From NCBI RefSeq assembly GCF_018474015.1, contig NZ_JAHCSG010000001.1:930001-994000 (forward strand): a DNA stretch of 64,000 bases, read 5' to 3'. The position numbers and the translations under genes are program-made. The stretch comes from Williamsia sp. CHRR-6. GTDB taxonomy: Bacteria > Actinomycetota > Actinomycetes > Mycobacteriales > Mycobacteriaceae. Of the stretch, positions 40,570 to 43,129 are shown in pieces. Each line of letters starts with the position of its first letter. The first letter of the stretch is position 1. The notes below the pieces were generated by a model, which saw only the letters and a program-made list of their open reading frames with translations, searched no databases and was not told where the DNA came from.

Positions 40570-41430
40570 GTGCAGGCAGGTAACAACTCATCGGGCCGAT
40601 CCGCGACGCCGACGCCGGAGGTGCCGCTCGATTTCCCCCGCGAGTGGTTCGAGTTCATCGATCCCGACAACTCCGAACACCTCATCAGCGCCGACCTCAC
40701 CTGGTTGCTGTCGAACTGGACGTGCGTGTTCGGCACACCCGCCTGCCAGGGGATCATCGAAGGCCGCGAGACCGACGGATGTTGCAGCCACGGCGCGTAC
40801 CTGTCCGACGACGACGACCGCGCGAAGCTGGCGGCCGGGGTGGCCATGCTCACCCCCGCCGACTGGCAGTTCCACCACAAGGGCAGTGGCCGTGACCCGT
40901 TGGGCAAACGCGGCTACCTCGTCGAGGACGACCTCAACGACGAGCCCGCCATCAAGACCCGAAAGCACAAGGGCGCCTGCATCTTTCTCAACCGCCCAGG
41001 GTTCGACGGCGGCCCCGGATGCGCGCTGCACTCGATGGCGCTACGCAAGGGGCTCGAGCCGCTGACGGTCAAACCCGAGGTGTGTTGGCAGCTTCCGGTG
41101 CGCCGCGAACAGGATTGGGTCCAGCGCCCCGACGGCACCCAGATCCTCAAGACCACCATCACCGAGTTCGACCGACGTGGCTGGGGCGAGGGTGGGCACG
41201 ACCTGCAGTGGTACTGCTCGGGTTCCCCTGATGCCCACGTCGGGGCCACCCAGGTGTGGCAGTCCTACGCCCCGGAGCTGACCGAGCTGATCGGCGCGGC
41301 CGCCTACGCCGAGCTGGCTGCGGCGTGTCGTCGCCGAAACGGTTTGGGGCTCATCGCCATCCACCCCGCCACCGCCGCGGCCACCACCCGCCGCGACACC
41401 GACATCAAATACGAGCTCCACCCCGAGTGA
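40570..41430 (+). CDS. Conserved cysteine-rich protein (Rv0495c-like)
   Basis: This 286-residue protein is conserved in Mycobacteriales next to ppx. Residues about 50-75 carry [12 protein letters not shown] and [13 protein letters not shown]. Later come [23 protein letters not shown] and [10 protein letters not shown]. Together they make a cluster of spaced Cys/His that could bind zinc or an iron-sulfur centre, as in YkgJ-type proteins. No enzymatic role is known to me. I place the start at GTG 40570, 34 bp from divergent ppx; the frame extends far upstream through ppx but that part is antisense. Confidence 0.75.
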
Positions 41431-41439
41431 CCACCCGCA

Positions 41440-42438
41440 GCTGCTGAAAACTGCGCCCTGACGACTGGCGGAGGGACAGTTCCCCTCCGTCGCTGCCTAC
41501 TCCGGATTTTTCGGCAGGGGTGGAACCGGAACCCTGTGTCTAGGCGTCCAACCCGAGATGACCACCAACGTGTATTCCCGCTCGGAGCTGCTGTGCCGCG
41601 GCACCGACGACTCCGACATTCGCGCTGCGATACGCGACGGACATCTCGTCCGGCTGCGACGAGGCTGGTACGCCACCCCCGAGGCCGACCCGGACACCGT
41701 TGCCGCCGTCCGGGCCGGCGGGGTACTGGCGTGTGTATCCGCGCTCGCCGCGCACGGCCTGTGGATCCCGCCGGGCCACGACCGTCTGCACATCAGGTTC
41801 TCGCGCCACGGCGAGCGCGCCGGCCGGTGGGGTTGCCACGGATACGGCTCGACATTGCCGTGTGCCGCAGCGGTCGACACTGTGCCGGTGGCGTTGGACT
41901 GCGCGGGGCGCTGCCTGGGCCGAGAGGACTGGATCGTGGTCTGCGATTCGGCCCTGAACAGCACCGGGATGTCGCCGACCGAGCTGCGATCACAGCTGCC
42001 CGCATGCGCTGCGCACGTAGGGCGGTGGATCAACGACAGCGACCGACGCTCACAGTCGGGCACAGAGTCGATGGTGCGCCTGCGCCTGCGCGCCCTGGGA
42101 TACGCCGTGGAGGTGCAACCGGAGATCCCCGGGGTCGGTCGAGTCGATCTGCGCGTGGGACGACTGCTCATCGAATGTGACAGCCGGGCTCACCACACCG
42201 GCCTGGACACCTACTGCACGGACCGGCGGCGGGACCGCGCCGCATTGGTCGGCCGATGGATGACCATGCGGCTGACCTATTCCGACGTCGTATCCGACTG
42301 GGACGCAGTCCTCGCTGACATCGCGGCCATTGTTCGCCGAGACCGACATCGCCTGCGCCCCGGCCGAAAACTGCCGCTGGGTGTGCACTGAAGGGGAATC
42401 GTCCCCCCAGACCCCGCCACGGCGCAGTTTTCAGCAGC
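41440..42438. mobile_element. Single-gene unit with terminal inverted repeats (AbiEi/DUF559 cargo)
   Basis: GCTGCTGAAAACTGCGCC at 41440-41457 is matched exactly in reverse complement at 42421-42438, giving a 999-bp unit. Inside each arm the next 31 bp are also related (about two thirds identical by eye) and each includes a small hairpin: CGGAGGG/CCCTCCG at 41469-41489 and GGGGA/TCCCC at 42393-42406. The unit begins 10 bp after one conserved gene's stop and ends one base before the regX3 stop codon. The only gene inside is the AbiEi/DUF559 protein. There is no transposase, and I see no target-site duplication. It could be a non-autonomous mobile unit, a MITE-like cassette, or paired transcription signals. 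Confidence 0.5.
41558..42391 (+). CDS. AbiEi-like N-terminal plus DUF559/Vsr-type nuclease-fold protein
   Basis: The 277-residue protein starts with a winged helix of the AbiEi antitoxin/transcriptional regulator type (SRSELLCRGTDDSDIRAAIRDG, LVRLRRGWYA). The middle resembles the AbiEi C-terminal region. The last 110 residues resemble the Vsr-like restriction-endonuclease fold of DUF559: SGTESMVRLRLRALGY, then VGRVDLRVGRLLIECDSRAHH and DRRRDRAAL. Such proteins are widespread in actinobacteria and often annotated as type IV toxin-antitoxin components; I see no AbiEii-like nucleotidyltransferase toxin beside it. It stands alone inside an inverted-repeat-bounded unit, suggesting transfer. Confidence 0.75.
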   Translation: MTTNVYSRSELLCRGTDDSDIRAAIRDGHLVRLRRGWYATPEADPDTVAAVRAGGVLACVSALAAHGLWIPPGHDRLHIRFSRHGERAGRWGCHGYGSTLPCAAAVDTVPVALDCAGRCLGREDWIVVCDSALNSTGMSPTELRSQLPACAAHVGRWINDSDRRSQSGTESMVRLRLRALGYAVEVQPEIPGVGRVDLRVGRLLIECDSRAHHTGLDTYCTDRRRDRAALVGRWMTMRLTYSDVVSDWDAVLADIAAIVRRDRHRLRPGRKLPLGVH

Positions 42439-42439
42439 G

Positions 42440-43129
42440 TCAGGGCTCCAGCTTGTAGCCCAGGCCGCGCACGGTGACCAGGTGTTTGGGGTTGCCGGGG
42501 TCGGCTTCGATCTTCGAGCGCAGCCGTTTGACGTGCACGTCGAGGGTCTTGGTGTCGCCCACATAATCCGCACCCCACACCCGGTCGATCAACTGTCCGC
42601 GCGTCAACACGCGTCCGGCGTTGCGCAACAGATACTCCAGCAGGTCGAACTCCTTGAGCGGCAACGTGACCGGCTCGCCGGAAACCTGCACGATGTGGCG
42701 GTCGACGTCCATGGTGACCGGTCCGGCCTCCAGCAGACCGCCATCGATGCCCAGGTCGTCGGTGTTGTCCACGCCGCGTCGCAACACCGCGCGGATACGC
42801 GCGATCAGCTCGCGCGCCGAATACGGCTTGGTCACGTAGTCGTCGGCGCCGAGCTCGAGGCCCACCACCTTGTCGATCTCGCTGTCGCGCGCAGTCACCA
42901 TGATGACCGGCACACTCGACTTGGCGCGCAACGCTTTACACACCTCGGTGCCCGAGACCCCGGGCAGCATCAGGTCCAGCAGCACGATGTCGGGGCCTAC
43001 CCGGTCGAACTCGCCCAGGGCCCGGGACCCGTCGTTGACCACCGTGGTCTCGAAGCCTTCTTTGCGCAGCAGAAACGCCAGCGGATCAGCCAGAGACTCT
43101 TCGTCTTCGACAATCAGGACATGGGTCAC
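42440..43129 (-). CDS. regX3: Two-component response regulator RegX3
   Basis: This is a 229-residue OmpR/PhoB-type regulator. The receiver domain (1-120) has the acidic pocket in VEDEE, phosphorylation site D52 in LLDLMLPG and K in YVTKPYSA. The C-terminal winged helix includes [20 protein letters not shown] and [14 protein letters not shown]. With SenX3 it controls the response to low phosphate in mycobacteria. GTG 43129 overlaps the senX3 stop (GTGA) and follows AAGGA. Its stop codon lies one base from the right inverted repeat of the AbiEi unit. Confidence 0.95.

Follow-up and report, generated by a model that had tools for sequence, protein, structure and literature searches.

Beside the stop codon of the regX3 gene of Williamsia sp. 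CHRR-6, a single gene lies between two inverted copies of an 18-bp sequence. The question that this arrangement raises is whether the gene is cargo between repeats that some other element moves, or whether gene and repeats belong to each other. The window analyzed here is a stretch of 64,000 nt (contig NZ_JAHCSG010000001.1, positions 930,001-994,000; its genome is designated G000). The answer that we favor, with a probability of about 0.55, is a partnership of nuclease and palindrome that works like the REPIN-RAYT systems and is run by a non-homologous enzyme.

The 18-bp repeat, GCTGCTGAAAACTGCGCC, occurs exactly at 41440-41457 on the + strand and in inverted copy at 42421-42438 on the - strand; this much of the initial annotation holds without change, the pair itself being the only 2 matches in the whole window at up to 3 mismatches, against 0.05 expected by chance. 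The inverted arms can be extended to 47 nt, over which 77% of positions are complementary. Both ends of the unit are entire palindromes of ~78 nt, designated R, which consist of terminal repeat, unpaired spacer, central hairpin, spacer and terminal repeat. The 5' R occupies 41440-41517 and has the same architecture as solo copies found elsewhere; the 3' R, at 42361-42438, is recovered as a single unit (G000:C1:972366-972434) by the double-ended pattern CTGAAAACTGC-N30-60-GCAGTTTTC. In the window R, a spacer of ~14 nt separates the outer terminal repeat from the central hairpin (GAGGGAC..TTCCCCTC type), which is a predicted stem at 41466-41492 in the 5' R and is placed at 42392-42408 in the 3' R by sequence and RNA folding; the inner terminal repeat, a degenerate copy, lies on the gene side of each. 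The subterminal hairpins that had been noted at both ends are indeed there, as the middle of this larger palindrome and not as the whole end structure. Because each end is complete in itself, the unit is R-gene-R and not a simple terminal-repeat element. Only one gene is enclosed (41558-42391, + strand), as had been seen, and the 3' R overlaps its last ~9 codons and stop. The placement between the stop codons of two genes also stands: the 5' R begins 9 bp past the stop of the upstream gene (41428-41430, +), which has no Pfam match in the stretch searched, and the 3' R ends 1 bp from the stop of regX3 (42440-42442, -).

The enclosed gene encodes a protein of 277 amino acids, in which an AbiEi-like module (residues ~6-162) precedes a Vsr/EDxHD-type nuclease domain (~166-264). 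The N-terminal module resembles AbiEi (6y8q) over residues 6-162, and PADLOC AbiEi models match this part (best 1.8e-6). The C-terminal domain has a Vsr-like fold, for which the reference structures are 1cw0 (Vsr endonuclease) and 3r3p (I-Bth0305I, which we take to be an EDxHD homing endonuclease). Residues E170, D197, E206, D208 and H213 are invariant in 16 of 16 family members, and these acidic residues and the histidine are presumably catalytic. The only Pfam models that the window gene matches, all of them weakly, are MTES_1575, AbiEi and DUF559. The 16 members match five Pfam families at E ≤ 0.1, with MTES_1575 found in all 16 and a dimerization domain matched weakly in one; the Y1 transposase model is not among the five, and neither the 16 members nor the window gene match any transposase in Pfam. 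A plain-sequence PDB search gave nothing useful. The gene is under constraint to judge from dN/dS values of 0.14-0.21 in nine gene pairs. No AbiEii (DUF1814) toxin gene adjoins it, and it is the sole gene inside the unit.

The gene family is actinobacterial, and its members often have their own palindromes on the flanks. Carriage by phages was considered and rejected (71 pattern matches in viral contigs yielded 0 relatives, and a single phage record stands at 29.6% identity), as was carriage by plasmids (four plasmid records hold family members, and 4 of 4 are typed as non-mobilizable). Three Tsukamurella tyrosinosolvens sequences recorded as plasmids, NZ_LR134468.1, NZ_LR134454.1 and NZ_LR134466.1, carry members at 39-43% identity. 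Four family genes (L099, L105, L128 and L134) are found in contigs of the Acidobacteriaceae metagenome-assembled genome BOG_194; these contigs are probably misbinned actinobacterial ones, since L105 aligns at 73% to L107 of Tsukamurella. Many of the more distant family genes (many of L097-L138) have an upstream TTATCCACAG/TTGTCCACAG motif, mostly 60-150 bp before the matches, that resembles what we take to be the DnaA box consensus; TCCACA occurs in 47 of 159 flanks and in 3 of 156 background stretches. None of three distant nuclease paralogues in G000 (L003-L005) has a clear flanking repeat.

R also exists without the gene. In the 4.0 Mb of G000 (14 contigs), a search with the 16 bases of the end, 2 mismatches being allowed, gives 11 matches, and a reversed-pattern control gives 0. 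Two of the 11 make up the window pair, eight fall in six solo R (two solos being matched at both ends), and one, at L016, is taken as chance, R being absent around it. The six solos lie outside the window, are ~78-79 nt long and are empty inside. The initial annotation had suggested a possible mobile unit, to be checked by a search for inverted end pairs ~1 kb apart and for other cargo between the same ends. The unit is discrete, empty sites exist (see below) and its ends do recur in inverted pairs; those other pairs are ~79 bp apart, each a solo palindrome, and none of ~1 kb is found, nor does any other cargo lie between window-type ends in G000. The tally for the window type in this genome is six solos to one gene.

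How closely repeat and gene keep company is seen by comparing genomes, in the first place the eight of the genus set (G000-G007), all of which have family members. By the double-ended pattern, the window type is present as gene plus solos in G000 and in G002, where the gene matches in two frames, and in 0 of 6 other genus genomes. A second type, GAGATCGTCCG (type II), is found at 23 places in G000, G002, G003, G004 and G006 (by our count 7 beside genes and 16 solo, with at least 2 solos per genome in all five) and at none in G001, G005 and G007, where the gene of the corresponding clade is not found. A third, TCACAAACG (type III), accompanies its gene, with solos, in G001 and G005 and is absent from five others; G007 has three copies (C1:138960, 195017 and 1014969) and no cognate gene that was found, so that these are either relics after gene loss or companions of a gene that escaped detection. 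One Gordonia type numbers 8 copies in G. polyisoprenivorans, of which 2 adjoin the gene; G. oryzae has a single copy, and 18 other Gordonia genomes, in which absence of the cognate gene was judged from one locus per genome, have 0. Pooled over these four types and counted as genome-type pairs, in genomes that are related to one another, solos accompany the cognate gene in 11 of 11 pairs (9 distinct genomes) and occur in 1 of 33 pairs that lack it, the exception being G007. In the lineages examined, the R type goes with the gene lineage.

The gene tree bears on the same point. The genes at L002, L018, L019, L020, L021, L024 and L026 form one clade (clade II, support 100/99). The R type beside them is GAGATCGTCCG, which at L020 takes a variant form with GAGATCTGCCG as one of its arms; both this type and that of the window gene occur in G000. 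Neither site nor close kinship fixes the type: the gene at the regX3 site of G007 (L017) is 62% identical to the window gene, yet its R is of a different type. Because members of this family of predicted nucleases are found time and again with a palindrome type of their own, the window gene is likely to be the cognate enzyme of R and not a passenger, and the initial view of a unit that has no enzyme of its own and is mobilized in trans is probably the wrong way round.

A broader survey covers 80 family loci, which are partly orthologues of each other. Inverted similarity between upstream and downstream flanks exceeds the 99% level of 948 cross-paired flanks at 29 of the 80. A palindrome above the 95% background level is present on at least one side at 64 of 79 loci and on both sides at just 18 of 79, counts that are not specific by themselves because intergenic flanks are richer in hairpins generally. 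In 23 loci inspected by eye, most have palindromes on one or both sides and a few (L032, for example) have none; the terminal repeats differ between gene lineages. A pair that is 98% identical, L064 and L065, differs by 139 bp downstream of the gene, which by eye is a second R in tandem, as if R copies recombine. The record that holds L065 is titled Kitasatospora arboriphila; over 4.7 kb its contig matches Williamsia muralis at 98% identity, and so the title is probably wrong or the assembly contaminated.

Within a type, the length of R is constrained to a variation of at most 1 nt, although the search patterns allowed far more. All 23 type II places measure 64 nt over the pattern (allowed gap 30-60), every type III match measures 62 nt (gap 30-58), window-type matches measure 68-69 nt (gap 30-60) and those of the Gordonia type 85-86 nt (gap 45-75). 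In type II, the type tested for it, the central stem covaries: 22 copies have 35 both-sided changes, against 13.6 in shuffled data (reached in 0 of 500 shuffles), and a covariation score of 0.469, against a maximum of 0.193 when the partners are slid. Neither the number of pairs nor that of pair types is remarkable (reached by 148 and 37 of 500 shuffles, respectively), and pairing between the spacers is not clearly above cross-pairing; the terminal repeats, fixed as they are by the search pattern, are uninformative on covariation. RNA folding yields z scores of -5.2 to -10.2 in four solos and of -1.5 and -3.5 in the 5' and 3' window R, respectively. Rfam has 0 matches at gathering scores (8 sources). 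A type II covariance model run over the window finds nothing at the window R, which are of a different type, and weak matches otherwise (best E 0.006).

A blind test of the link between gene and palindrome comes from Gordonia. The flank of one Gordonia solo held a different repeat, TACGAATACAG..CTGTATTCGTA, which occurs at about ten places in the same genome. Nine further places were chosen by flank match, the genes there not being known beforehand, and taken together with the original. The repeat is present in 8 of the 9, the ninth (L312) having matched another part of the flank. One of these 8, L306, has a family gene enclosed by two copies, one of which lies ~11 bp past the stop of the gene; this gene is 39-48% identical to the 16 family members (best E 9e-69). 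The remaining seven and the original are solos. This second palindrome family of G. polyisoprenivorans (at L304-L311 and L313) is ~85 bp long, and its placement at gene ends is weaker than that of the other types, since 2 of its 8 solos have a stop codon within 40 bp. As for the solos of the first type, four of five tested are shared between G. polyisoprenivorans (G008) and G. oryzae, one more was found by pattern in both, and the fifth of those tested has no match in the sister species; because these solos are old and shared, the pair furnishes no clean empty site.

Solos of R sit mostly at the ends of genes. By heuristic ORF calls, 24 of 34 are within 40 bp of a stop codon, 8 are within 40 bp of a start, 5 lie between divergent genes and 2 are inside a called ORF; the type II terminal repeat contains TGA and can provide its neighbor's stop. 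Filled and empty regX3 sites, which the initial annotation had proposed to compare, both exist: the site is filled in three of the eight genus genomes (G000, G002 and G007), empty apart from a small hairpin in G001 and G005, and occupied by other sequence in G003, G004 and G006, with R absent from the 330 bases inspected. Solo sites vary likewise. The solo L163 is found in G004 and G006, and G003 (flanks 92-94%), G005 and G007 lack it; L140 is complete in G003, and what remains of it in G004 is a truncated scar of decay; L146 is common to G003, G004 and G006. L141 is present in G003, G004 and G006 and was not seen in G000, G001, G002, G007 or the inspected part of G005. At L151, a solo in G004 and G006 corresponds to 5 kb of other DNA in G003; at L152, a solo confined to G006 corresponds to 2 kb of other DNA in G003 and G004, R being absent at this site in G000, G001, G002 and G007; and at L160, where G004 has a solo, both G003 and G006 have 1.27 kb of other DNA, and G000 has nothing. 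Solo R and R-gene-R are thus present or absent at orthologous sites, in comparisons that do not separate gain from loss. Neither a very recent insertion nor, by eye, a target-site duplication was detected, among sites that do not combine a recent insertion with a clean empty site. The L141 site also has a different palindrome, GAACCCGC..GCGGGTTC, in G003 (L233) and G002 (L236), possibly of another repeat family; L237 (G000:C3:45060-45320), between two gene ends, is a tandem repeat with a unit like TTTCGGCACGGTCGACGCC; and at L170 (G006:C6) an assembly gap of Ns has R sequence on both sides, probably an artefact of scaffolding at a repeat.

Whether genomes break at R was examined in seven 20-kb pairs from G004 and G003, chosen around solos before the search for breaks and aligned over 123 kb. 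Of five R junctions in G004, four fall at large indels (525-4997 bp), compared with 8 of 94 other junctions (p 0.0006), the latter 8 stemming from 6 breaks, one break being able to touch two junctions. When convergent junctions alone are compared, the numbers are 1 of 2 and 4 of 21 (p 0.40, not significant), and the sixth R site, which is held by G003, has no break. On both counts the association of R with breakpoints is a hint only.

A working scheme for the partnership of nuclease and palindrome can be composed from these elements. The AbiEi-like module would recognize R, through its terminal repeats, its hairpin or both. This is the simplest reading because AbiEi and Rv2827c each recognize inverted repeats of 23 bp, either protein binding its cognate repeat but not that of the other, as described in PMC7319586. 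The Vsr-fold domain would then cut or nick at R, and host repair would capture the cut R elsewhere, mostly at the 3' ends of genes, where it may do least harm; broken R sites might sometimes lose or exchange adjacent DNA. The gene would persist at a few ancestral sites under purifying selection, with R as its non-autonomous partner, spreading and decaying. In its most specific form, the proposal is of an undescribed class of repeat dispersal, in which a reader of the AbiEi type joined to a hydrolytic nuclease of the Vsr/homing type cuts its own ~80-bp palindromes and host end joining or annealing re-inserts them. This specific form is offered tentatively, at rather less than even odds.

The simplest competing account makes R a host transcription terminator or mRNA 3'-end hairpin and the gene an independent nuclease, with the upstream R at most its operator. 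The crowding of solos at stop codons (24 of 34, against 8 of 34 near starts) is what one would expect of it, as are the strong folding of the four solos tested (z -5 to -10) and the presence of other hairpins at the same spot in several relatives that lack R. However, a terminator has no need of terminal repeats of 13-20 bp that are peculiar to one nuclease lineage, differ between paralogues of a single genome and are mostly missing from genomes without the lineage. The outcome of the blind test, a family gene between two copies at L306, also counts against it, as does the second Gordonia family, just 2 of whose 8 solos have a stop within 40 bp. We consider this account unlikely. The nuclease might instead be a selfish gene of the homing type, cutting solo R or R-less sites into which R-gene-R is copied by break repair; R would supply the homology, and solos would be its targets or the remnants of gene loss. 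That solos outnumber R-gene-R (6 to 1 for the window type in G000), that the genes keep to few conserved sites, and that no site compared between genomes has solo R in one and R-gene-R in the other make homing distinctly unlikely.

Two further explanations were weighed. In the one to which the initial annotation inclined, the R elements would form a family of MITEs, R-gene-R would be a cassette carried as passenger, and an unrelated transposase would mobilize both in trans. In its favor are the inverted ends, the non-coding copies at dispersed places and the lack of the element at some orthologous sites. Against it, only this gene family has been found between R copies at the loci examined, each R type examined goes with it, and window-type ends in G000 enclose no other cargo, so that the MITE reading is very improbable. 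The other takes the protein for a solitary AbiEi-like nuclease directed against phages or plasmids, with R marking self or regulating the gene. The matches of its N-terminal part to the PADLOC AbiEi models are in its favor, but the AbiEii toxin partner is missing from the unit and the dispersal of R to the 3' ends of unrelated genes is left unexplained, and the lack of relatives in viral contigs weighs neither for it nor against it; we give this account hardly any credence.

The preferred reading is that of a REPIN-RAYT-like partnership, RAYT standing for REP-associated tyrosine transposase. REPIN-RAYT systems keep their gene at few conserved sites, their dispersed repeats decay and their repeats are rare without the gene, and the system described here resembles them in all three. 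The comparison is with the systems treated by Bertels and Rainey (2011, PMC3116915), who describe short palindromes dispersed outside genes, often as inverted doublets that form hairpins; Di Nocera (2013, PMC3733652) adds that RAYT genes are flanked by REPs. R likewise consists of dispersed extragenic palindromes of fixed architecture (with only 2 of 34 solos inside a called ORF), located downstream of genes, near a dedicated gene that is flanked by the same repeat, and its type tracks that gene across genomes (11 of 11 with, 1 of 33 without). The differences are that the enzyme is an AbiEi-like module joined to a Vsr-fold nuclease and not an HUH/Y1 protein, that a single palindrome, nearly constant in length and with a hairpin inside, makes up each R, and that the hosts are Actinobacteria. 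Since the enzymes are not homologous, the window system is not a RAYT. The CGTC-tagged REPs, which PMC3733652 describes as palindromes with a CGTC motif, with no known transposase and mainly in Alphaproteobacteria, offer another parallel in that type II R contains ATCGTCCG; no homology is claimed. The words Actinobac-, Mycobacterium, Rhodococcus, Gordonia and Nocardia are absent from the text of that paper.

Other known systems share single parts with this one. The N-terminal module of the window protein resembles the AbiEi antitoxin, which like Rv2827c binds cognate inverted repeats; unlike these two, the window protein is fused to a nuclease, has no DUF1814 toxin adjacent, and has repeats on both sides of its gene as well as dispersed ones. 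Vsr and EDxHD enzymes share the fold, the conserved acidic residues and the histidine, but the intron or mismatch-repair context of Vsr and I-Bth0305I is not seen here, and the window protein is paired with a palindrome family. In contrast to insertion sequences and transposons, the unit encodes no DDE, serine, tyrosine or HUH transposase. The attC sites of integrons are imperfect palindromes with conserved outer boxes, placed directly after stop codons and at breakpoints, in all of which they are like R, the breakpoints of R being a hint only; unlike attC sites, the R of any one type have a common sequence in addition to a common structure. The MTES_1575 domain has been described in giant HEPN fusion proteins (PMC3710099), in passages that do not mention repeats. 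Among the matches listed for the open-access literature, no title or abstract opening links the gene family to a repeat.

Dispersed palindromes are common in bacteria, and to our knowledge no enzymes other than the HUH-type RAYTs have been tied to them. If a second, non-homologous enzyme is at work here, partnerships of palindrome and enzyme would have arisen more than once. If the scheme of cutting and re-insertion is correct, REPIN-like spread would take place across Actinobacteria without transposase chemistry, and genes would be lost and exchanged exactly at the edges of R. The widespread and poorly explained AbiEi/DUF559-like genes of Gordonia, Williamsia and other Actinobacteria would then have a function, regulators of toxin-antitoxin systems would be linked to the dispersal of repeats, and the gain and loss of genes at the ends of other genes would have a cause that can be tested directly.
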